DNA of 45,026 bases. Origin: Phycisphaerales bacterium (GTDB lineage Bacteria; Planctomycetota; Phycisphaerae; Phycisphaerales; SM1A02). The stretch is from positions 1-45,026 of the forward strand of contig JABDLI010000238.1 of assembly GCA_013003065.1 (NCBI GenBank), written 5' to 3'. This document shows positions 5,088-22,467 of the stretch, one piece after another; the first letter of the stretch is position 1, and every line of letters begins with the position of its first letter. The position numbers were made by a program, and so were the translations under genes. The notes under the pieces were generated by a model. The model saw only the letters and a program-made list of their open reading frames with translations. It ran no database searches and was not told the DNA's origin.

Positions 5088-6266
5088 TCAGCGGGCGGCG
5101 ATGGCCGGGAACGCGAACCCCTTGGCGACGGCCTGTGCACGAATCGCACGACGAAGAGCACCGTCGAAGGACTTCTCGTCGTCCAACGCCTGCTGCTTCA
5201 TGAATTCCTGGACGAAGCCCTCCCGCTGCTTCGTCACCTCGGCGATCCGGGCCTGAAGGTCCGCGCGTTCCTGACGCTTGGTCGCGATGCACTCCAGCCG
5301 CTCGTCGGGCGTCATGGTCTGCATCGCCTCGGGAAGCGCGTCTTCCTCGATGGCGTCGAGGTCGAAGTCCTCCTCGGCGGAGGCGTCGACGAGATCCCAC
5401 GCGGCGTTGCGATACAACGCACCACCCTTGGTCGAACAACGCGCCGCGGCCGCCGCCGCGCCGAGGGACGCCGCGTTGGCATCCTGCGCCGCCTGGTTCT
5501 CGCGGAACCACCCGCCGCGTTCGCCGAAGGGGAGGTACGTCTCGTTGATCTTCGCGCTCATCGACGCCAGCTCGGCGTCGAAGGGCGTCTCCACGATCAC
5601 CGTCCCCTGATCCTTGTCGATCGAGGCGAAGTGGCCGTCGGCCAGGAGCGCGACCTGCTTCCACCCCGGCGCGATCTCGTCGAGCGCGGGCCCGCAGTAG
5701 ATCGAGTTCACCATGATGCCCCGCGTGATCAGCGACTTGCACACGTCGGCGTACGGCATCTCCTGATCCTGGTCGGCCGACTCGTTGCCGGCGACGACGG
5801 CCAGCTTCAGCGCGTCCTCGGACGGGTGCCAATCGAGCTGACCGGCGTGGTGGAGCACCCGTCCCACCAACTCGGTGCCGCCGTTCGTCTGGAGCGCGAA
5901 GAGCTCGCGTGACACCAGGTCGAGGTCATCGGTGAACGCAGTGTTCACCTTCACCCAACCGTTCTCGGGCGTGTGCCCGTCGTTGCCGAACGTGAGCAGC
6001 GCGACGCGAAGATCCGGCGTCGGCGTGGCTTGCGCGAGGTCGTTGACGATCGACCAGAGCTTCTGCTTGGCGGCATCGATGAGACCGTCCATGCTGCCGC
6101 TCGTGTCGAGACACAACGCGAGCTCGATACGACGCGGGGCCTCGAGATCGAGGGAGGGTCCGCACGCCTCCGCCGGCGTGGCGGGAATAGCGACGGGGGC
6201 GGCCAGGGCGAACGCCAGGCCGGCGGCGGCGAGCGACGTTCCGAGGCGAATCGTGAAGATGAACAT
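5088..6266 (-). CDS. Exported von Willebrand factor A (VWA) protein
   Basis: A 392-residue secreted protein. A signal peptide (about 1-33, hydrophobic core SLAAAGLAFALAAPVAIPA) ends at TPAEA/C. A VWA domain follows, with the complete metal-ion adhesion motif DTSGS (54-58). It contains TNGGTEL and ends near GTVIVETPF. The C-terminal ~150 residues are helical and charged (QERADLQARIAEVTKQREGFVQEF), probably a coiled coil. The ATG at 6266 follows AAGGAG by 6 nt. The ATG eight codons upstream lacks such a site and would put acidic residues before the signal peptide. It lies 39 bp after the VIT-VWA gene and is probably cotranscribed with it. Ligand unknown. Confidence 0.88.
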   Translation of the reverse strand: MFIFTIRLGTSLAAAGLAFALAAPVAIPATPAEACGPSLDLEAPRRIELALCLDTSGSMDGLIDAAKQKLWSIVNDLAQATPTPDLRVALLTFGNDGHTPENGWVKVNTAFTDDLDLVSRELFALQTNGGTELVGRVLHHAGQLDWHPSEDALKLAVVAGNESADQDQEMPYADVCKSLITRGIMVNSIYCGPALDEIAPGWKQVALLADGHFASIDKDQGTVIVETPFDAELASMSAKINETYLPFGERGGWFRENQAAQDANAASLGAAAAAARCSTKGGALYRNAAWDLVDASAEEDFDLDAIEEDALPEAMQTMTPDERLECIATKRQERADLQARIAEVTKQREGFVQEFMKQQALDDEKSFDGALRRAIRAQAVAKGFAFPAIAAR

Positions 6267-8782: not shown

Positions 8783-10273
8783 TCAGTTCATCGGCTCCAG
8801 CGTGAGCGGGTCCCGCATGGGCAGATGCCGGACATTGCCGCCGAAGAAGTCGTTCATGCTCGCCCGGCCGTCCAGATCGCCGCCGTAAATCTCCCCCCAG
8901 TCGCCGACGACGAGGATCATCATCGCGGCGGGATCGAGGTGGGTCCGGGCCACCCGCTGCACGTCGCGTTTCGTCACCCGGCGGATGCGGTCGCGGAAGG
9001 TGTGCCAGTACTCGGGGTCGCGATCGGTCAGCTCGTCGTTCACGAACGTTCCCAGCACCGCCTCCTTGGACGAGAAGCGTTGCGGGAACCCTTCGATGAA
9101 CGAGTTCTTGGCGAGCGCGAGCTCTTCGTCGCTCACGGGTTCGCTGCGAATGCGATCGAACTCCTCGAAAATGATCTTCGTCGCGAGCGCGACCGTGCGG
9201 TTCTTCGACTGGAAGAACGCGCCGAAGATCCCCGGGAAGTGAACCTGCGGCGCGATGAACGAGGACGCGCCGTAGGCGAGCCCCTCATCGCTCCGCACGC
9301 GGCTCATGATGCGGCTCGTGAAGCCGCCGCCGCCGAGGATGTGGTTCATGACGTTCAAGGTGAGCATGTCCGGGTGATCACGCTCGACCGCCCGCTTCAC
9401 GATGATGGCGGTTCCCTGCGGAAGCTCCTCCTGCGCGACCGACGCGTGGTAGAGCCCCGGCTCCACCGTCTTTGCGGGCGCGGGCGGCGGGCCCGCGGGA
9501 ACGCCGGCCGGCCAGTCCGCCAGCGCGCGGTCGAGCGTCTCGAGCATGACCGCCCGATCGAAGTCGCCGGTGACCGCGACCGCGAGATTGCCGGGATGGA
9601 AGATCCGCGAGTGCAGTCGGCGGAGGGCATCCGGGGTGATGGCTTCGATGCTCGCCGCGGTGGGACGACGGCCGAGAAAGTGGTCGGCCCCGTAGAGCAG
9701 CTCACCCATGTGAAGCTGCGCAACCGACATCGGGCGATCGTTGCGTTGCTTCAGCTCTTCGAGCACCTCGTCCTGGTGCAGGCGAAGACGCTCGGCGTCG
9801 AAGCCCGGCTGTCGCAGAACGTCCATGAACAACCCGAACGCCTCCGGGAAGTTGCTCTTGAGGCAGTCGAGCGACGCGGTCGCGTACTCCTGGCCCACGG
9901 ACGTCGAGACGTTCGCCGCCAGAAAATCGAAACGCTCGTCCAGCTCTCGCGCGTCGACGGACACCGTCCCGCCGCGTCGCATGAGCGAGCCGAGGGCCGT
10001 GGCGAGCCCCGCGGCGTTCGATTCCTCGAGGTACGCCCCGCCGCGGAACGTGAACGTGACGTTGATGAGCGGGAACTCCCGGCTCGTGGCCAGGTACACC
10101 GGGACGCCGCCGGCCAGCTCGTGCCGGAACGACGTCGCCTCCGGGGGCGTGAATTCGAGGGGGGGGAACGTGATCGCGTCCGGACTCGCGGGAATGTCCG
10201 CGTGGGTGGCGACGCCGAACGCGGCGGCAAGCATGGCGGCGAGAACGGGAAGCGTGCGTCGAGTCGATCGCAT
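8783..10273 (-). CDS. M16-family peptidase homologue lacking the zinc motif
   Basis: A 496-residue exported M16 (pitrilysin/processing peptidase) protein. A signal peptide at about 1-25 ends near THA. It has two M16 halves, with the second containing GGGGFTSRIMSRVRSDEGLAYG, the typical C-terminal M16 signature. The position where the HxxEH zinc motif belongs reads GLATALGSLMRRGG (about 89-102), with neither histidine nor the glutamate. It should therefore be catalytically inactive. The gene directly upstream encodes an active M16 protein, so the two probably form the active/inactive pair known for heterodimeric M16 proteases. ATG at 10273 has GGAGG at 9 nt; the longer in-frame start lacks a site and would run into the previous gene. 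Confidence 0.9.
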   Translation of the reverse strand: MRSTRRTLPVLAAMLAAAFGVATHADIPASPDAITFPPLEFTPPEATSFRHELAGGVPVYLATSREFPLINVTFTFRGGAYLEESNAAGLATALGSLMRRGGTVSVDARELDERFDFLAANVSTSVGQEYATASLDCLKSNFPEAFGLFMDVLRQPGFDAERLRLHQDEVLEELKQRNDRPMSVAQLHMGELLYGADHFLGRRPTAASIEAITPDALRRLHSRIFHPGNLAVAVTGDFDRAVMLETLDRALADWPAGVPAGPPPAPAKTVEPGLYHASVAQEELPQGTAIIVKRAVERDHPDMLTLNVMNHILGGGGFTSRIMSRVRSDEGLAYGASSFIAPQVHFPGIFGAFFQSKNRTVALATKIIFEEFDRIRSEPVSDEELALAKNSFIEGFPQRFSSKEAVLGTFVNDELTDRDPEYWHTFRDRIRRVTKRDVQRVARTHLDPAAMMILVVGDWGEIYGGDLDGRASMNDFFGGNVRHLPMRDPLTLEPMN

Positions 10274-10329
10274 GGTCGGTTTCCTCCGGGAGGGAGCGGG
10301 AGCAGCAGAAGCGGCGGACGCGAGGCGGC

Positions 10330-12081
10330 TCACTGGTCACCTCCGTCGAGCTGGGCGATCCGCTCGTTGAGCTTCTTGACGACATAGGCCATCGTCGCCT
10401 GGTGTTCCGGGGGCACGGAGCCCGCCTGCGCCTCCATCATGCCGACGATCATGCGCAGCTCGTCGGGGTTGTCCTTCGTCATGAGCTGGCTCATCATCGC
10501 TTCGATCTGCTGACGCACCTCCGGGGGGAACTGCGCCAGCTCGTCGTCACCGCCGTCGTCCCCGGTCGGACGCGGGCGACGCGAGTAGAGGGCAACGCAC
10601 CGGTTCTTGGGCGTGAAGTAGGTGTTCGCCACCCGCATGATGTCCTCGGCGGTCACGGCCGCGAGGCGGACCGGGCTCTCGTTGATGTACTCCCACTCCC
10701 CCATCGCCTCGTACATGCCGAGCTGGATCATGAGCGCGTTGTTCGTCTCCAGTCGGCGGTAGGCATCGGCGGCGATCTGGTTCTTCACCTTCTGAAGCTC
10801 GTAGGGCGACACGGGCTCTTCCTTGAGCCGCGCGACCTCCGACTCCCAGGCGGCCTCCAGATCACTCGGCGTCGCCTCGCCCTTCACCTCGGCCTGGAAG
10901 AGGAACGAGCCGGCGTACTTCATGCTCTCCTGCCGCGTCATCGCGCCGGCGGCGATCTCCATGCCCTCGACCATCGACTTGTAGAGACGTCCGGTGCGTC
11001 CGTTGAGAACCGCCGACAGCACGTCGAGCGTGTCGCCGTCGGCGTGACCGAACGGGACGGTGTGGTACCGGACCTTGATCTGCGGCTGGCAATCGCAGGA
11101 TCCGATGAGCCGTTTCTCGGCGAGCTGCTCGACCTCGAGCGTCACGACCGGCGCCGGAGGGCGGACCCCGGGCTGGAGGCGGCCGAAGTACGTCTCGATC
11201 AGCGGCATCACCTCGGCGATCTCGAAGTCACCCACGATCACGCCGACGAGGTTGTTCGGTCGGTAGTAGATGTTGAAGTACTCGTCGAACTGCTCGCGGG
11301 TGTAGCTGTTGAGATCGCTCGGCCAGCCGATCACCGACCACGAGTACGGCGACGACTGCCAGAACATTGCGTCGAACTGCTCGTCGAGCTCGCCCGTGGG
11401 GCTCGACTCCAGACGCATCCGGCGTTCCTCGTGCACGACGTCACGCTCGGCGTAGAACTCGCGGAAGACCGAGTCGCTGAGCCGATCGGACTCCATCCAC
11501 GTCCACAGCTCCAGCTTGTTGCTGGGGAGCGTGATGATGTAGAACGTGATGTCGTTCGACGTGAACGCGTTGAGCCCGGTGGCGCCGGCGTTGGTGTAAA
11601 TCTCGGCGAACTCGTTCTTCTCGATGACGGAGCGGTGCTCGTCCATCAGACGGCGCAGCTCCGTGCGCAGGCGGCTGAGCTGCTGCGTGTCGTGGGCGGG
11701 ATCCCACGGGTCGTCGATCTCGCCGCGGCGATAGCGTTCGTACTGCTCGCCCCAGATGAGCTCGTTGATTTGCTTCTTGACCGCGCGTTGCCGCTCCATG
11801 AACTTCGCGTCGGCGGCGACGTCGCTGGTCCCGATCGACGTCGTTCCCTTGAACATCATGTGCTCGAAGAAGTGGCTGATGCCGGTGATGCCCGGTCGTT
11901 CGTTGACCGAGCCCACCTTGGCCACCCAGCCGCACGAGATCGTGTTGGGCTGCTCGTGACGCGGCATGAGGAGGAAGGTCATGCCGTTGTCGAGCACGAC
12001 TTCCTCGACCTCCACGGACTGGGCCGCGACACCGGCGGAAAGAAGCGTGACGGCAAGCAGCGTCGGCAGGAGGGTTCGCAT
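10330..12081 (-). CDS. M16-family zinc metallopeptidase (active subunit)
   Basis: A 583-residue exported M16 peptidase. The signal peptide is at about 1-20 (LLPTLLAVTLLSAGVAA). The inverted zinc motif HFFEH is at 70-74, within GITGISHFFEHMMFKG, with the further zinc-ligand glutamate expected in the helical segment downstream. A charged insertion of about 70 residues (AKFMERQRAVKKQ to SVIEKNEF) separates the motif from TGLNAFTSNDITFY. The second M16 domain starts at about 250. The C-terminal ~70 residues (MMSQLMTKDNPDE to LDGGDQ) extend beyond the family. It probably degrades peptides in the periplasm together with the inactive partner downstream (56 bp gap). Start chosen at the signal peptide methionine; the site in front is only a weak GGAAG. 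Confidence 0.9.
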   Translation of the reverse strand: MRTLLPTLLAVTLLSAGVAAQSVEVEEVVLDNGMTFLLMPRHEQPNTISCGWVAKVGSVNERPGITGISHFFEHMMFKGTTSIGTSDVAADAKFMERQRAVKKQINELIWGEQYERYRRGEIDDPWDPAHDTQQLSRLRTELRRLMDEHRSVIEKNEFAEIYTNAGATGLNAFTSNDITFYIITLPSNKLELWTWMESDRLSDSVFREFYAERDVVHEERRMRLESSPTGELDEQFDAMFWQSSPYSWSVIGWPSDLNSYTREQFDEYFNIYYRPNNLVGVIVGDFEIAEVMPLIETYFGRLQPGVRPPAPVVTLEVEQLAEKRLIGSCDCQPQIKVRYHTVPFGHADGDTLDVLSAVLNGRTGRLYKSMVEGMEIAAGAMTRQESMKYAGSFLFQAEVKGEATPSDLEAAWESEVARLKEEPVSPYELQKVKNQIAADAYRRLETNNALMIQLGMYEAMGEWEYINESPVRLAAVTAEDIMRVANTYFTPKNRCVALYSRRPRPTGDDGGDDELAQFPPEVRQQIEAMMSQLMTKDNPDELRMIVGMMEAQAGSVPPEHQATMAYVVKKLNERIAQLDGGDQ

Positions 12082-12138
12082 GGAAATCTTCCAAAGACGG
12101 GCGAGGAGGGGTTGCTCCCGAACCGGACGGGAGGAAGA

Positions 12139-12144
12139 TTTATA
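12139..12144 (-). promoter_or_regulatory. Candidate -10 box for the M16 operon
   Basis: TATAAA on the minus strand lies in an AT-rich patch of an otherwise very GC-rich 144 bp divergent intergenic region, about 57 nt before the ATG at 12081. No good -35 match at standard spacing. Confidence 0.35.
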
Positions 12145-12225
12145 TCGCCCCGCGGCGGGAAGGCTCGTTGCAGGCGAAGATTTCCCGAACATTCACGGCG
12201 ACCTCGCCCCCCGGAGATGAGCCCC

Positions 12226-14941: not shown

Positions 14942-15038
14942 CGGGAGTGGATGGGAATCGAACCCACCGAGAACCTGTGTTCCAGACCCTCCAACGGGTT
15001 TGAAGCCCGCGGCCGCCACCAGGCGTGCAGACACTCCC
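14942..15038 (-). tRNA. selC: tRNA-Sec (anticodon UCA)
   Basis: A 97 nt tRNA in the unusual shape of selenocysteine tRNA. The acceptor is GGGAGTG/CACTCCC (the eighth position is a T-C mismatch) with a G discriminator. The anticodon stem-loop GCGGG-CTTCAAA-CCCGT carries anticodon TCA, which reads UGA. A long variable arm (GAGGGTCTG pairing, with wobbles, to CAGGTTCTC) and the T-arm GTGGG-TTCGATT-CCCAT complete it. CCA is not encoded. The length, long variable arm and anticodon identify selC. It stands just downstream of selA and selB, on the same strand, with its own promoter. Confidence 0.96.
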
Positions 15039-15051
15039 TCGTGTCGCACTC

Positions 15052-15080
15052 ACCATAGCGCGGGGGGCGGCCGTTGCCAA
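15052..15080 (-). promoter_or_regulatory. Sigma-70-type promoter of tRNA-Sec
   Basis: On the minus strand, TTGGCA (15080-15075), a 17 nt spacer and TATGGT (15057-15052). The -10 ends 13 nt before the tRNA 5' end, as expected for a short tRNA leader. Confidence 0.7.
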
Positions 15081-15119
15081 GGCGGCACCTGACATGCCGC
15101 ACCGGCCGGGCGACCGGCG

Positions 15120-16520
15120 CTATCGCAACGCCACACGCAACGCCGCGACCATCGTCGCGTCGTGGCGCGCCGGCACGGTCCGCAAGTCGATCCAGACCTT
15201 CCCGTCGTGGGCTCGGGCGATGACGGCCGGGTCTCCGGAGCGGAGGCGGCGGGCGAGGGCTTCTTCGCCGCCAGTTGCTTCGAGGACCACGGCGCGACTC
15301 GGAATCGCCTGCGCCGGCAACGCCCCACCGCCCAGGTGCGCCACCGCCGGCTCCACCGACGCGGCCACGAGGCCGTCACATGCTTCAAGCGTCGCGACGA
15401 TCCGCCGTCCCCGCTCCTCCAGCGTGGTCAACGGGACGAGCGCCGCGGCGATGACGGGCAGCTCCCGCGCGGCCCGCGCCGGGTCGCGGTGGATCTGGAG
15501 CGTCACGCCGAGACCGGCCAGGGTGTGTTTGTCCACCCGCAGTGCGCGCATCAGCGGATGACGCTCCAGCCGGTCGACCGCATCGGTCCGGCCGACGGCG
15601 ATGCCGGCCTGTGGTCCCCCGAGCAGCTTGTCGCCGCTGAACAAGACGAGGTCGGCCCCCGCCGCGATCGACCGGGCGACGTCGGGCTCGTCCGCCTCGA
15701 GCCCGAGCTCGCGCAGCGGACGCAAGGCGCCCGACCCGACGTCGTGCACGACCATCACCCCCTTGGCGCGCCCAACGCTGACGAGCTCCTCGATCTCGAC
15801 CTCGTGCCGGAAGCCTTCGACGCGGTAATTGGAGGGGTGCACCTTCAGCAGGACCGCGGTGCAGTCCGTGATCGCCGCGTCGTAATCGCTCAGCCGGGTG
15901 CGGTTGGTCGTCCCGACCTCACGCAGCGTGGCCCCGCTCGTCACCATCACGTCGGGCAACCGGAAGCTGCCGCCGATCTCGATCAGCTCGCCGCGGGAGA
16001 CGATCACCTCCCGGTCCGCCGCCAAAGCCGCCAGGGTCAGCACGAGCGCGGCGGCGTTGTTGTTCACGACCGTCGCCGACTCGGCGCCGGTCAACTCGCA
16101 GAGCAGGTCTCGCACGAGCATCGTGCGTCGCCCCCGGGCGCCGGCGGCAACGTCCAGCTCGACCGGCGCGTACTCGGAGGACACGGCCGCCATGGCCTCC
16201 GCCGCGGCCGTCGCGAGCGGCGCCCGTCCGAGACCGGTGTGCACGATGATGCCGGTCGCGTTGATCGCCGGCATCAGCGGCGGCCGCGCCTCTCGCGCGA
16301 GCCGCTCGCGTGTGCGTTGCGTCAGAGCCTCGATCGTGATCGGTCCCTCGCGGCGTTGCTGCAAGGCGCCGCGGTGCGCCTGCAGCTCGGCCCGAGCGGC
16401 CGCGACGATGAGCGGCCGGGCCGTGGCGTCGAGCGTGGGGTCATCCTGCACCCGTTCGACCAGCTCATGGACGGACGGAATGTGACGCGCTGACATCGAA
16501 GCAGGCGTCTCGTCGGTCAT
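15120..16520 (-). CDS. selA: L-seryl-tRNA(Sec) selenium transferase
   Basis: A 466-residue PLP enzyme. It converts Ser-tRNA(Sec) to Sec-tRNA(Sec) using selenophosphate. The N-terminal tRNA-binding segment includes INATGIIVHTGLGRAPL (about 86-102). The core contains NNNAAALVLTL, SRGELIEIGGSFRLP and VHDVGSGAL. The PLP-binding lysine is K298 in FSGDKLLGGPQAG. Length is usual for bacterial SelA (about 460). Its ATG at 16520 overlaps the selB stop (ATGA), so the two are translationally coupled. The tRNA-Sec gene follows 81 bp downstream. Confidence 0.96.
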   Translation of the reverse strand: MTDETPASMSARHIPSVHELVERVQDDPTLDATARPLIVAAARAELQAHRGALQQRREGPITIEALTQRTRERLAREARPPLMPAINATGIIVHTGLGRAPLATAAAEAMAAVSSEYAPVELDVAAGARGRRTMLVRDLLCELTGAESATVVNNNAAALVLTLAALAADREVIVSRGELIEIGGSFRLPDVMVTSGATLREVGTTNRTRLSDYDAAITDCTAVLLKVHPSNYRVEGFRHEVEIEELVSVGRAKGVMVVHDVGSGALRPLRELGLEADEPDVARSIAAGADLVLFSGDKLLGGPQAGIAVGRTDAVDRLERHPLMRALRVDKHTLAGLGVTLQIHRDPARAARELPVIAAALVPLTTLEERGRRIVATLEACDGLVAASVEPAVAHLGGGALPAQAIPSRAVVLEATGGEEALARRLRSGDPAVIARAHDGKVWIDLRTVPARHDATMVAALRVALR

Positions 16521-18442
16521 CGGCTCGTCTCCACGTTGGCGTGCGCAAGGACGCGGCGGTCCCCCTCCCGGCGGGTAAAGCCTATGCGATCGAGGTATTC
16601 GCAGATCGGCACGGCGTACTTGCGGGTCGTTTCCAGAACGTCCTTCACCTCGCTCATGGACATGCCGGCCGCCCCGACCTGCTCCGCGAGACGTCGCTGC
16701 ATCTCCTCCACCCACCGGGTGTGCAGAAAGATCTCCGGTGAGAGCCGAACGAGCACACCCTGACCGGTCCCGAGGGCGACGAGCTCCCGCACCGCCGCTT
16801 CGTCGACGCCGAGGTCGCCGGCGAGCTGCTTGGGGCTCGGCGGCCGGAACGCCGCCGTTTCGTAGGCGGCGATGACCTCGGCGTGACGGCGTCGTTGGGC
16901 GGCGCTCAACGCCGGCGCGGCGTCGGGCAGGGCAATGCCCGCCGGTTCCGAACGCACCGCCCGTGACCGGATCAGGTGCGCCAGCCCCGATTCGACGAGC
17001 GGGCGGTCCACGTAGCGGAGGTGGCTGAGCAGCGTCTGCCGCGGGATCGCGAGATCGAGCGGCCGTTGCTCGTGGAGCGCGCGCAACCCGGCGATGATCT
17101 GCATCGAGAGGTTCTCGAGGTACATCCGGTGCACCGGCCGGTTCGCCGGCGGGCCGAGCGCGACGAGCGTGCCATCGGTCTCGAGCGCGGACCGCACGGC
17201 GGAGACGCGACCGAGATCCAGATCGGCGTCGCGGACCCAGGCCGCGTCGTCCGGTGGGGCGGGGCCGAAGAAGAACGCGGCCGCCCCGGCCCGCGTGGCA
17301 TCGTCGGCCGAGGCGAGCGCCGGCAATTGCTCGATCGACGCGGTGTCGCGACGGCGGAGCCGGCGGGGAGCCGGTTGCAGCACGACGCCGCCGCCGATCG
17401 TGCGCAGCGGGCTCTCGGCCCGCAGGACGAAGGGTTGGCGGTTGACGGACGCGACGGGCTCCGCGACGAAGAGCTGAGCATGCTGCCGGCCCCCCGGTTC
17501 CAGCTGCGCCCGCCCGAGGAGCGCCACCCGCGCCATGACCTCTTGCGCACCGATGTGCAGCCGCACCCGGGCGCGATGCCGCAGCGGCCACGGACACTCC
17601 TCGAGCAAGTCGAGCTGCACGGTGAGCAGACGCGATGGACGCAGGAAACCAGGCGCGGCCAGCACGTCGCCACGCGAGAGCGCCGTGTGGTGCACCCCTT
17701 GCAGGTTGATCGCCGCCCGCGCGCCGGCCGCGATCGTGTCGCACGTCACCCCGTGCGAATGGAGCCCGCGCACCCGCACCGTCGCACCGGCGGGCCACCG
17801 CTCGACCTCCTCGCCATCACGCAGGACGCCCGAGAACACGGTGCCCGTCACCACCGTTCCCCGCCCGGCCAACGTGAACGACCGATCGACGCAGAGCCGG
17901 AACGGCTGGTCGAGACGCCTGCGCCGGACGCGGGCCGCCGCCGCGACAATCGCCGCGCGGAGCGGTTCCAGCCCGAGCCCGGTCGTCGCGGACGTGCGGA
18001 CGATCGGCGCTTCCTCGAGAAACGAGCCGGCGACGAGCGTGCCGATCTCCTGCTCGACGAGATCGACCCACGCGGTCTCGGCGAGGTCCACCTTGGTGAT
18101 GACGATCACCCCCGCGCCGACGCCGAGCATCCGGAGGATCTCCAGATGCTCGCGTGTCTGCGGCATGACCGAGTCATCGGCGGCAACGACCAGCACGGCC
18201 AGGTCGATGCCGCACGATCCGGCGAGCATGTTTCGGATGAACCGCTCGTGTCCCGGCACGTCGACGACGCCAAACCGCTGGCCGCCGATCTCGAGGTGCG
18301 CGAATCCCAGCTCGATCGAGATGCCCCGCTGCTTCTCCTCGGCGAGCCGATCGGTGTCGATGCCGGTGAGCGCACGAACGAGCGCCGTCTTGCCGTGATC
18401 GATGTGACCGGCGGTGCCGAGGATGAGCGGACGGGTGGACAC
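16517..18442 (-). CDS. selB: Selenocysteine-specific translation elongation factor
   Basis: A 641-residue SelB. It delivers Sec-tRNA to the ribosome at UGA codons marked by a SECIS hairpin. The EF-Tu-like GTPase domain has GHIDHGKT (12-19), the switch I segment [20 protein letters not shown] (61-66) and TKVD (116-119). Beta-barrel domains follow, then C-terminal winged helices (about 450-641, with [19 protein letters not shown] and [25 protein letters not shown]) that bind the SECIS RNA. The start is GTG at 18442 with no Shine-Dalgarno; a TAGAAT hexamer ends 6 nt upstream, so the selB-selA mRNA is probably leaderless. SelD lies upstream on the same strand beyond a repeat island. Confidence 0.96.
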
Positions 18443-18448
18443 GGACGG

Positions 18449-18454
18449 ATTCTA
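18449..18454 (-). promoter_or_regulatory. -10 box implying leaderless selBA mRNA
   Basis: TAGAAT on the minus strand ends 6 nt before the GTG of selB (18442). No ribosome-binding site is present in the gap. Confidence 0.55.
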
Positions 18455-18459
18455 CGGGG

Positions 18460-18537
18460 GCGGACGCGGACGCGGACCCGGACCCAGACGCGGACCCGGA
18501 CACGGACGCGGACACGGACACGGACACGGACGCGGGG
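18460..18537. repeat. GGACNC hexanucleotide repeat upstream of selB
   Basis: About a dozen imperfect copies of the hexamer GGACGC, GGACAC or GGACCC run in tandem. The array starts just 5' of the selB promoter. A closely related array lies inside the coding region of the PEGA lipoprotein (44236-44370). Such arrays are prone to length variation. No gene is supported here. Confidence 0.85.
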
Positions 18538-18570
18538 CCGTCAGCGCGAACGCGCCGATCGCACAAACGC

Positions 18571-18867
18571 CCGACCCAACCTGCCCGAGGCGGCACGACG
18601 CCGCCGGTCCCCGCGCAGCCTGCACCCGCCGGAGGCGGTTCGAAAAATAGTCCGAACCCACGCCGAAACATCCAGACGCCAGGTGAGCAGGATGCGGGCG
18701 GTGTATTTGGGCGCTCCGCCGTCCTGTGCTTCGCCGCAGGATGCGGCGGAACACGCTGAGGTCGGTTGCGCGCCGGACGACGCAGCGTTCAGCGAACAAC
18801 CAACTGAGGCCGAGGGCGGCACGACGCCGCCCGTGGCTGCGCGGGTCGTCCGGCGGTCACCGGTGTG
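18571..18867. repeat. Interspersed repeat, copy 1 (about 297 bp)
   Basis: This element and a second copy at 18909-19204 share about 48 bp at one end and about 75 bp at the other, almost without change, while their middles have diverged. Each end carries the palindrome GGCGGC-N5-GCCGCC (here 18589-18605 and 18815-18831, loop ACGAC in both). A further perfect 7 bp inverted repeat, CGCCGCA-GGA-TGCGGCG, lies in the middle. The structure suggests a non-autonomous mobile or REP-like element. No transposase is nearby. Confidence 0.75.
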
Positions 18868-18908
18868 CGACACGGACGCAAACGCGCGATGAACGCCCAT
18901 CGCGCAAC

Positions 18909-19204
18909 CCGACCCAACCTGCTCGAGGCGGCAGGACGCCGCCGGTCCCCGCGCAGCTCCTGCCGCCGGGTGGCGGCACATAGACAGTCATACCCACGCT
19001 GAACCATCCAGACGCGAGCCCGCATGGATGCGGGCGGCAAGATTGGGCGCCCGGGCCGGCTTGTGCCTCGCCGCAGGATGCGGCGGATCGCGCGTGGGTC
19101 GGTTCTGCGCCGGACGACACCGCGTTCAACGTGCGGTCAACTGAGGCCGAGGGCGGCAGGACGCCGCCCGTGGCTGCGCGGGTCGTCCGGCGGTCACCGG
19201 TGTG
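18909..19204. repeat. Interspersed repeat, copy 2 (about 296 bp)
   Basis: Direct repeat of 18571-18867, 42 bp further on. Its terminal palindromes are at 18927-18943 and 19152-19168, and here both loops read AGGAC. The middle keeps the CGCCGCA/TGCGGCG inverted repeat. Between selD (stop at 19228) and selB (start at 18442), the 785 bp interval holds only the two copies and the hexamer array. I see no supported gene there. Confidence 0.75.
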
Positions 19205-19227
19205 TTTGCGCGGTCCGCGATCCCACC

Positions 19228-20277
19228 CTACCGCACCACCAACGCCACATCCCGCGCCGCCTCCACCGACCCGACCACGCACGCCTCGTCGAGCCCCGCC
19301 GACTTGCACGCCGCCAGCACCGGCTCCACGGTCGATGGAGGCATGGCCAGGAGCAGACCGCCGGACGTTTGCGGATCGAACAGGAGCGGGAGGTTGGAGG
19401 AGTCCGACGCGGCGTCGATCTGCAGGAACGGCTCGACGTGTGTCCGGTTGGTGGCGTTGGCGCGGGTGAGGTGTCCACCGTCGATGGCGTCGGCGACGCC
19501 GGGCAACGCGGGAAGGTGTTCCAGGTGGAGGACGAGCGTCACGCCGCTCGCGTGCGCCATCTCGCCGGCGTGGCCGGCGAGACCGAATCCCGTGATGTCG
19601 GTCGCACCCCGCACGCCGTGCGTTACCGCGGCTTCGGCCGCAACGCGGTTCAGCGTGATCATGCTCGCCGTGGCCGCGGCCAGGGCCCCGTCGGCGTCCT
19701 TGCCCGCGCGGGCGGCGGTCGCGATGAAACCGGTGCCCAGCGGCTTCGTCAGAACGAGCAGATCGCCGGCCCGCGCGCCGCGGTTCGTCATCATGCGGCT
19801 CGGATCGACCGTGCCGGTCACGGACAGCCCGTACTTCACCTCCGCGTCGCGGACCGAGTGCCCCCCCACGATGACCGCGTCCGCCGCCTGCACCCGTTCG
19901 GCCCCGCCCCGCAGGATCTCCCCCAACACAGACAGATCAAGGTCCTTGTCGGGAAAGCCGACCACGTTGAGCGCGGTCCGAGGTTGCGCCCCGGTCGCGT
20001 AGAGATCGCTGAGCGCGTTGGCGGCCGCGATCTGACCGAAGACGAACGGATCGTCCACGATCGGCGGGAAGAAGTCGACGGACTGCACGATGGCCAGGTC
20101 GTCGGCGAGGCGATAGACCCCGGCGTCGCTGAAGTGTTCGGCGCCGACGAGCAGATTCGGGTCCGTGAACGAGGGAAGGTCTTGCACCAACTGTGCAATC
20201 GCCTGAATCGGCAGCTTGCCGGCTCAACCCGCGCAGGATCCGTAGTCGAGAAGACGCTTCTTGCGTCCGAAGGCCAT
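19228..20277 (-). CDS. selD: Selenide water dikinase, itself a selenoprotein (Sec18)
   Basis: A 349-residue selenophosphate synthetase that makes selenophosphate from selenide and ATP for SelA. The frame is interrupted by TGA at 20224-20226 (codon 18), and reads DYGSCAG-U-AGKLPIQAIAQL. This Sec aligns with the catalytic cysteine of Cys-type SelD (C17 in E. coli), three residues before the essential lysine (K21 here). Downstream motifs include DFFPPIVDDPFVFGQIAAAN, GGHSVRDAE and ATDITGFGLAGH, all typical of SelD. Without readthrough the product would lack its active site or be a 17-residue peptide. Start: ATG at 20277 with GGAG 9 nt upstream; an ATG at 20298 is an alternative. Selenium may therefore control its own supply. 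Confidence 0.95.
20182..20198 (-). promoter_or_regulatory. Candidate SECIS hairpin of selD
   Basis: On the mRNA strand TTGCAC pairs perfectly with GTGCAA around the loop AGTTG. The loop starts 32 nt after the UGA, and a G is in the first two loop positions, as in the bacterial SECIS consensus. Folding was judged by eye. Confidence 0.6.
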
Positions 20278-20378: not shown

Positions 20379-21890
20379 ATGAAACAGCACGCACTCGGAC
20401 ATCACCATGCGGCGCCCGGCCGCGGGACGGCGTGGGGGCTCGTGGCCGGCGCTGGCCTCCTGCTCGCGGCAGCAGACATGGCCGCCGCCGACCCGCCGCG
20501 GCTTGCGGTCGGCGAGCCCTTCCCCGACCTCGTGCTGCCCCTGCTCGACGGCGAGCCGTGCTCGGTCGCCGACTACCGGGGCCAGAAGCTGATCCTGCAC
20601 GTCTTCGCATCGTGGTGAGCGGGTTGTCGTCGACACGTGCCCGGGTGGCACGAAGCAACCAAGACGCTCCAGGCCGACGGCGCCATCCAGATGATCGGCA
20701 TCGTGCAGGAGCAGCACCCTGATCGCGCGCGGCTGTTCATGCAGTGGAAGGAGATGGGCTGGCCGGTCCTCGTCGACGCCCTGAACCAGCTCGAGGTCGA
20801 GGTCGTGCCGATCACGATGTTCATCGACGAAGAGGGGATCATCCGCTCCATGCGTCCTCCCCGCCGCGGCATGGCCGAAGCCGCGGCGGCCTTCGCGGCG
20901 GAAACCGAACCCGCTGCCCCGGTGGCGTCCGACCCGCCCGCGGCGACGAGCCGCCCCGTCTCCGAGCTGCTGTCGCCCCCCGGTCGCGACGCCGATACCG
21001 AAGCGTGGCGTCGGTACGGCCTTGCCCTCGTCGACTTCGCCCCGCCGGAGCGTCTGGACGAAGCCGTGCGGGTGCTGGGGCGTGTGTTGCAGATGAACCA
21101 GGATGACGGCCTGACGCGATTCCAGCACGGCGTGGCCCTCCGCCGCCGCTACGAATCGCCCGCCGGACGCCCCGGCGACTTTCAGGCGGCGATCATCTCG
21201 TGGACGGCCGCGCTCGACGCGAACCCCAACCAGTACATCTGGCGTCGACGCATCCAACAATACGGCCCGCGATTGGAGAAGCCCTACCCGTTCTACGACT
21301 GGGTCGAGTCGGCGACCGCGGCCATCCGGGCCCGTGGGGAGGAGCCGGTGCGTCTCTCGGTGAGACCCGGTGACGCGGAGATCGCGCGGCCGGCGCGCGA
21401 CTTCGACGCCTCGAGACCGGCAACCGGAAGCGATCCGGAGGGTCGGGTCACGCACGATGAGCTGTTCGTCGCGGCCGAGGTGACGGTCGTTCCGCCCGAG
21501 GTCGATCCGGGCCAAACGGTGCGGGTGCACGTCACGATGCACCCCAACCGCGTCATCGACGCGCACTGGAACAACGAAGCGGAGCCGTTGATGCTCTGGA
21601 TGACACCGCCGGAGGGCTGGGCGATCGACGAGCCGCAAGTGACCTTCGCCAACGCGTCGACCGCGGTATCGAACGAGTCCAGGACGCTCGAATTCGAGCT
21701 GAAGGTGCCCGCCGATTCGCCGGGCGGGGTCACGCTCGTGCGTGGCTACGCGCTCTACAACGTCTGCGAGGGCGCCGATGCCACCTGCCTGTATCGCCGC
21801 AAGGAGGTGGTGGTGCCGGTGCGGGTATCCGGGGCCCCGGTCAACAAGCCGGGACCGTTCACCCCCCGGGGGACGCCGGGGGGCGGGTGA
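20379..21890 (+). CDS. Exported thioredoxin-like selenoprotein (UxxC, Sec80) with DsbD-N-like C terminus
   Basis: A 503-residue protein with a TGA at 20616-20618 read as Sec80. An N-terminal hydrophobic segment (about 18-37) after a His-rich start is a probable signal peptide or anchor. A redoxin domain (about 40-170) has the active site FASW-U-AGC, so the usual CxxC is UxxC, and a cis-Pro in EVVPITMFID. The frame continues unbroken after the UGA. A helical TPR-like region (about 205-300) follows, then a beta-rich region (about 365-490, with VDPGQTVRVHV and LEFELKVPADSPGG) resembling the N-terminal domain of DsbD. Likely role: periplasmic thiol redox exchange or peroxide reduction. GGAG lies 8 nt before the ATG. 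It is divergent from selD and overlaps the AhpD-like gene by 32 bp at its 3' end. Confidence 0.92.
20636..20652 (+). promoter_or_regulatory. Candidate SECIS hairpin of the thioredoxin-like selenoprotein
   Basis: CGTGCC pairs perfectly with GGCACG around the loop CGGGT. The loop begins 24 nt after the UGA (20616-20618) and has G as its second base, matching bacterial SECIS rules for distance and loop. Confidence 0.65.
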
Positions 21891-22467
21891 ATCGCCCTTT
21901 CTCGCGACGCCAGTCTTCCGGTGAGCGGGTCATCCACGGTTCGAGGTCGACGCCCAGGCCGTCGGCCACGCGGTTGATGTAGTTGAAGTACGACACGACC
22001 TGCGTGGCGACGGTGATCTGCTCGTCGGTCAAACCGTGTTGCCGGAGGCACTCCGTGTCCCCGGCGTTCATCGCGCCCGGAGTGAGCGTCAGCTTGACCG
22101 CGAAGTCGCACAACGCGCGATCATCCGCGGGCAAATCAGCGTCGCGGTAGTCGAGGATGAGCCGCTCCGCCAACGCCGTGTTTCCGGACTCCCGACCGAA
22201 GTCCCTGGCATGAGAGAGCGTTCAGTAGAAGCAGTCGTTCACGTTGCTGACGACGGTGGCAAGCATCTCCCGCCGGCTCGCCGACAACGCGTTCCTGGAC
22301 TTCATGATCGAGATGTAGAACTGCATCGACGCGTCCGTGGAGCGGGCGTCGAGGCTCATCACCTTGATGATGTTGGCCACCTCGCCCGCGCGGCGGCGGC
22401 CGGCTTCGTAGAGCGCGGCGATGGGGCCGGTCGCGTCCGCCTCTTCGATCTGACGCACGAAGGCCAT
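21859..22467 (-). CDS. AhpD-like peroxidase selenoprotein (CxxU, Sec82)
   Basis: A 202-residue carboxymuconolactone decarboxylase/AhpD-family protein with TGA at 22222-22224 read as Sec82. The site reads NDCFY-U-TLSHARDFG. The set E67, C79, U82 and H86 has exactly the spacing of the AhpD catalytic residues E118, C130, C133 and H137 (M. tuberculosis numbering), so Sec replaces the second, peroxide-reactive cysteine. The family motif VVSYFNYINRVADGLGVDLEPW after the UGA confirms the continued frame. Predicted role: cytosolic alkyl hydroperoxide reduction. ATG at 22467 follows GGAG by 6 nt. It converges on the thioredoxin-like gene, with a 32 bp overlap of the 3' ends. The tRNA-Glu gene and a terminator precede it. 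Confidence 0.94.
22186..22204 (-). promoter_or_regulatory. Candidate SECIS hairpin of the AhpD-like selenoprotein
   Basis: On the mRNA strand GGACT pairs with AGTCC around TCGGTCGGG. A closing T-G wobble would shorten the loop to CGGTCGG, with G at its second base. The loop begins 23-24 nt after the UGA. Confidence 0.6.

Follow-up and report, generated by a model that had tools for sequence, protein, structure and literature searches.

A stretch of 45,026 nucleotides of planctomycete DNA (the window, at its full length) carries, at 20379 to 21890 on the forward strand, a gene that almost certainly encodes a genuine selenoprotein, with selenocysteine at residue 80 (U80) of its active site. We say so because the UGA at codon 80 is kept in every homologue seen, because the hairpin after it agrees with the bacterial SECIS model and is under selection as RNA, and because the complete decoding machinery adjoins the gene. 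The reading frame starts with an ATG at 20379, preceded by an SD-like GGAG 7–10 nt upstream, ends with a TGA at 21888–21890, and spells 503 residues, U80 included. The codon at issue (20616–20618, forward strand) lies between FASW and AGC and is the sole in-frame internal TGA; with C83 (20625–20627), it makes up UAGC, a UxxC motif. Under the standard code, the gene breaks into a 79-residue product and a second open reading frame at 20637–21890 (GTG start, 417 amino acids), which is the misannotation that a sequence-only reading of this DNA had predicted. Thioredoxin-fold UxxC selenoproteins are already well known; what we describe is a widespread family of them that apparently uses selenocysteine only.

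How faithfully is that codon kept? Exact peptide patterns that excluded the TGA site, run against 84,980 species genomes, returned 124 relatives, the best 80 of which were fetched; 79 of these and one locus from a search of relatives make 80 distinct loci, all covering the site. The aligned codon is TGA in all 80, which come from Planctomycetota, Acidobacteriota, Gemmatimonadota, and Verrucomicrobiota, and TGC or TGT occurs at the U80 codon in none of these 80 (the best-scoring of the 124 relatives plus the one). Loci fetched in surveys of Planctomycetota and of the relatives, a set that includes the window locus and overlaps partly with the 80, have TGA exactly at U80 in 33 of 33 cases. Within Planctomycetota, the gene is present in 43 of 392 genomes (E ≤ 1e-30), about one in nine, and a TGA lies inside every match from these carriers that covers the N terminus. 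That the TGA is a nonsense mutation or sequencing error in a TGC or TGT codon, as the predominance of metagenome-assembled genomes (MAGs) and a lone TGA in one genome would permit, is refuted by the same codon recurring in both sets of loci across several phyla and by a downstream frame conserved among homologues at 37–56% identity.

Neither the 80 distinct loci nor the 392 Planctomycetota genomes nor the 33 survey loci yielded a full-length protein with Cys in place of Sec, and since none turned up, the full-length family appears to be Sec-only; outside Planctomycetota, that statement is drawn from the 80 best-scoring loci, and exact peptide patterns could miss divergent Cys forms. Farther out, the picture changes. 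In distant one-domain redoxins, including paralogues in the same genome, every match that extends over the site has Cys opposite U80, and Sec/Cys pairs were seen only with these distant proteins, at ∼25–35% identity over one domain. Because the distant redoxins have Cys and all family loci have TGA, we read the site as the redox cysteine position of the superfamily, written always as UGA in the full-length family. The sequence-only reading, which had placed Sec at this TGA within a UxxC active site, is thus upheld; its appeal to Cys-containing homologues is answered by the distant redoxins and by no member of the full-length family. A family that never reverts to Cys makes directly testable what Sec offers beyond Cys.

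The RNA tells the same story. The hairpin CGTGCC-CGGGT-GGCACG (20636–20652, forward strand) has its loop beginning 23 nt after the UGA. The published bSECIS model calls for a stem of 4–16 bp and a loop of 3–9 nt that has a G in its first two positions and lies 16–37 nt after the UGA (PMC13188914); the window hairpin falls within it, its stem being 6 bp long and its 5-nt loop, CGGGU, having a G at position 2. Under the same model, a stem of at least 6 bp follows the UGA in 73 of 81 sequences, as against 313 of 1580 other in-frame positions in the same genes, and stems of 5 bp or more follow it in 80 of 81. Some sequences carry compensatory changes, with G-C replaced by A-T or T-A (e.g., ATTCC...GGAAT and GTACC...GGTAC), and nowhere in the gene is synonymous variation lower than at the hairpin codons (mean normalised entropy 0.35 vs. 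0.84, p = 5e-4), with V87 nearly fixed as GTG (62 of 63) and H91 as CAC (57 of 60). The suggestion that a 6-bp hairpin stood at SECIS distance, made at first from the letters of one genome, therefore holds up.

In one group of sequences, most of them with the motif U-R-GC, the original hairpin is broken, and a replacement (e.g., CCAGGCC-GTGCC-GGCCTGG) lies ∼5 nt earlier, nearer to the UGA, while the protein is conserved (L048, L051, L057, L062, L064, L065, L069, L074, L078, and L079). Those of them present in our tree form one clade with support of 100/100, and the element seems to have relocated once; the shift is a natural example of a recoding signal moving within a conserved protein-coding sequence.

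A complete Sec cluster lies immediately upstream of the gene, on the reverse strand, at 14943–20277. It comprises tRNA-Sec (selC; 14943–15038; RF01852, 67.3 bits, cut-off 47), selA for L-seryl-tRNA(Sec) selenium transferase (15120–16508; TIGR00474, 512 bits, cut-off 268; the open frame runs further upstream than 16508, and the start is not fixed), selB for the selenocysteine-specific elongation factor (16517–18442; TIGR00475, 361 bits, cut-off 242, with PF09107), and selD (19228–20277; AIRS and AIRS_C domains). selD has an in-frame Sec TGA of its own at 20224–20226, in the context SCAG-U-AGK, and that TGA is conserved in three further loci (L009, L061, and L073); a standard gene caller would place the start of selD after it. 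The divergent selD and selenoprotein genes start ∼100 bp apart, and the space between them is perhaps a shared promoter region. With this cluster next door, a conserved SECIS hairpin downstream, Cys at the site in distant homologues, and Trp never there in the sequences seen, we reject a reading of the UGA under an alternative code or by general readthrough, whether as Trp or as some other residue; in its favor is a frame that is open once the TGA is read through, and against it is also that TGA terminates this gene and many of its homologues.

Carriage of the gene goes with carriage of the machinery. Among 61 genomes (that of the window and its relatives), tRNA-Sec was found in 7 of 7 carriers and 11 of 54 noncarriers (p = 7e-5), and across the 392 Planctomycetota genomes, it was found in 38 of 43 carriers and 193 of 349 noncarriers (p = 1e-5). 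The five carriers without a counted tRNA-Sec are all fragmented bins; two of them have tRNA-Sec-like matches barely over the gathering score, which were not counted, and four have selB above cut-off, leaving one incomplete bin (G242) with neither tRNA-Sec nor selB above cut-off. At homologous loci, the commonest neighbor families are SelB and SelD, at six loci each, and among 1360 neighboring open reading frames, no conserved non-sel neighbor was commoner than these two. Linkage to sel genes is a feature of only part of the family, because at most of the homologous loci no such gene lies within 6 kb.

The tree holds 35 rows from Planctomycetota, 20 from Acidobacteriota, 8 from Gemmatimonadota, and 5 from Verrucomicrobiota, along with single bins of Chloroflexota, Armatimonadota, and Actinomycetota, a spread that broadens the known use of selenium among environmental bacteria. 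It follows the phyla in part (12 label changes vs. a shuffled mean of 32). The window protein groups with the Planctomycetota bins B4T1B5 and Bpl_8 (98/95), and B4T1B5 and the genome of the window appear to belong to one family, the genes at L009 and L097 being equal in length and identical around the site. No full-length homologue covering 80% of the query was found on plasmids. Two irregularities were seen in passing: a Gemmataceae MAG (L067, ∼6169–6190) has an in-frame TAG five codons past the Sec UGA, by error or decay, and at L102 and in genome G051, the gene apparently lies in two frames, an N-terminal part with the TGA and a C-terminal part apart from it, by frameshift or sequencing error.

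What sort of protein is made once the UGA is read? An AlphaFold2 model built with 75 sequences (pLDDT 89) begins with a signal-like hydrophobic helix, followed by a Redoxin/AhpC-TSA domain (residues 44–157, 20508–20849, forward strand; PF00578 E = 6e-14, PF08534 E = 9e-10) and a TPR-type helical region (residues ∼207–293, 20997–21257, forward strand), the helices of which are seen in the model and which has TPR_1/TPR_11 matches in 63 of 75 members (best E = 2.1e-12). This is the order from signal peptide through redoxin and TPR-like region to a C-terminal domain that had been proposed from the sequence. The redoxin domain has a ResA/TlpA/DsbE-like fold, its best fold matches being ResA and DsbE proteins (Foldseek to ResA, 1.3e-8), and it has both marks of a TlpA/ResA-like protein, a helix that begins with the active-site pair and a Pro that is conserved. 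The invariant residues include U80, G82, C83, P144, and C463, and P144 is likely the cis-Pro.

The C-terminal domain (residues 348–486, 21420–21836, forward strand) is harder to name. Modeled alone, its 139 residues form an Ig-type beta sandwich with a pLDDT of 96. It carries two cysteines in the context YxxC-x6-CL, C463 (21765–21767), which is invariant, and C470 (21786–21788), which is kept in 73 of 75 members; the stretch around them, YNVCEGADATCLYRR, is similar to YQGCADAGFCYPP, the redox stretch of nDsbD from E. coli, and to YQACDDMFCLAP, that of a DsbD-type protein encoded in the same genome. PF11412 (DsbD_N) does not match the window protein, its gathering score was not reached, and 6 of 68 relatives match it, with a best E of 0.008. 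Alignment by hhalign against four nDsbD domains, that of E. coli among them, gave a probability of 4.5% and E = 0.009 in a single comparison, and nDsbD is absent from the top 50 Foldseek matches to the domain, where other Ig-like proteins come first. Since the profile match is weak, Pfam is marginal, and Foldseek prefers other Ig-like proteins, we call the domain Ig-like with a conserved Cys pair and possibly nDsbD-like. The earlier label “DsbD-N-like” is supported in part: the Ig-like fold, the Cys pair, and the similar motif speak for it, and no significant profile or fold match was found. The same genome encodes two DsbD_TM proteins, and on its contig C281 (L160, 56518–56847), a long protein without Sec has a DsbD_N domain (TYQVCTDTACLAP) at its C-terminal end, and no membrane part follows.

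From these parts one can imagine how the protein might work. By established biology, SelB-GTP-Sec-tRNA would bind the hairpin and insert Sec at UGA80 to give the 503-residue protein. The fold and its residues then suggest export by the N-terminal hydrophobic segment, attack by the U80 selenol in the ResA/TlpA-like domain with resolution by C83 into an Se–S bond, and a TPR region that would serve as spacer or docking surface. C463 and C470 might pass electrons from DsbD-type transporters, of which the genome has two, to the Se–S bond, or they might take them from substrate. CcmG of E. coli, a thioredoxin of the TlpA type, receives electrons from nDsbD, and by analogy, it would make sense to fuse the two partners. 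We lean, by a little, toward an extracytoplasmic thiol-disulfide reductase as the predicted activity. The internal dithiol relay through C463 and C470 is a more tentative proposal, somewhat short of probable, and the idea that such a relay is obligatory is weakened by the 2 of 75 members without C470.

Two other accounts of the protein have to be weighed. The C-terminal domain could be redox-inactive, an Ig-like binding or structural module in which the two cysteines form a static disulfide, and we hold this to be a serious possibility, if not quite a probable one. It would fit the generic Ig-like fold matches, with nDsbD outside the top 50, and the weak NPCBM_assoc matches seen in 21 members (Pfam on 68 members); it fits less well with a pair so nearly unchanging, or with the resemblance of its motif to the active-site stretches of E. 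coli nDsbD and of DsbD-type proteins in the same genome. The other account, which we consider less likely than a reductase, is that the selenoprotein acts mainly as a peroxidase of the AhpC/Redoxin or glutathione-peroxidase type rather than in disulfide reduction. Peroxidases favor Sec, the best Pfam matches are AhpC-TSA and Redoxin, and weak GSHPx matches occur in 11 of 75 members, but PF00578 and PF08534 cover TlpA-type proteins as well, the fold points first to ResA and DsbE, and oxidoreductases have this very arrangement, a UxxC whose resolving Cys lies close by together with an invariant Pro. To return to the reductase, our boldest proposal, offered as a conjecture that may well prove wrong, is that the family is an extracytoplasmic enzyme that depends on Sec and relays electrons by itself, with selenothioredoxin, TPR, and nDsbD-like reductase in one chain, that it spans at least four phyla, has no Cys form, is partly sel-linked, and has a SECIS element that shifted within the coding sequence as the family evolved, and that it may be one reason why these bacteria keep Sec.

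Is the family new? A catalogue of prokaryotic selenoproteins lists 119 families and subfamilies (PMC13188914), and two earlier descriptions come close. In ocean metagenomes (GOS), a Prx-like U/CxxC protein was found fused with DsbC/DsbD_N (PF11412) (PMC9402790, Fig. 2D); like ours, it joins an AhpC/Redoxin-type UxxC domain to a PF11412-type domain with an extra conserved Cys, but Cys forms are reported there and a TPR is unmentioned, whereas our family yielded no Cys form and matches PF11412 marginally. The Prx-like 3 or “Redoxin family protein” selenoproteins (PF08534, UxxC; PMC2398784, listed in PMC13188914) share the Redoxin domain and the UxxC motif, and one GOS form is fused to a Cys-containing domain, Unknown_3 (PMC2398784); they differ in having thousands of Cys homologues, and Unknown_3 has three Cys, including a CxxC, where our family has C-x6-C. 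It is possible that our family is identical to the PMC9402790 fusion or to the Prx-like 3 fusion of PMC2398784, from which it is set apart by descriptions only.

Among curated models, NF041054 (WAxxUGC_long, ResA-like selenoproteins) is the best NCBIfam match to the redoxin domain, in 75 of 75 members (E = 1e-16 for the window protein, 1e-26 at best), but its name gives a UGC motif where ours is UxGC, and the match is limited to residues 48–175; at 61.3 bits against a curated cut-off of 300, membership of the window protein is rejected. Neither NCBIfam (June 2026) nor Pfam has a model spanning the family's length, the window protein stays below every NCBIfam cut-off, and a literature search found no named family matching it. 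Of the well-known proteins, ResA, TlpA, and CcmG (DsbE) share the fold, the position of the active-site pair, and the conserved Pro but have Cys where the family has Sec, and they come without the TPR or Ig-like domain. The N-terminal domain of DsbD shares the Ig-like fold, a Cys pair near the domain end, and a similar local motif but gives no significant profile or fold match, and the spacing of the pair, C-x6-C in the family, is C-x5-C in E. coli DsbD and C-x4-C in the DsbD-type proteins of the same genome.

Elsewhere in the window, two adjacent open reading frames on the reverse strand (8783–12192) have weak, sub-cut-off matches of the YfmF/YfmH type (M16 peptidase), and a short one downstream of the selenoprotein gene (∼21859–22173, reverse strand) looks by eye to be of the AhpD/carboxymuconolactone type.
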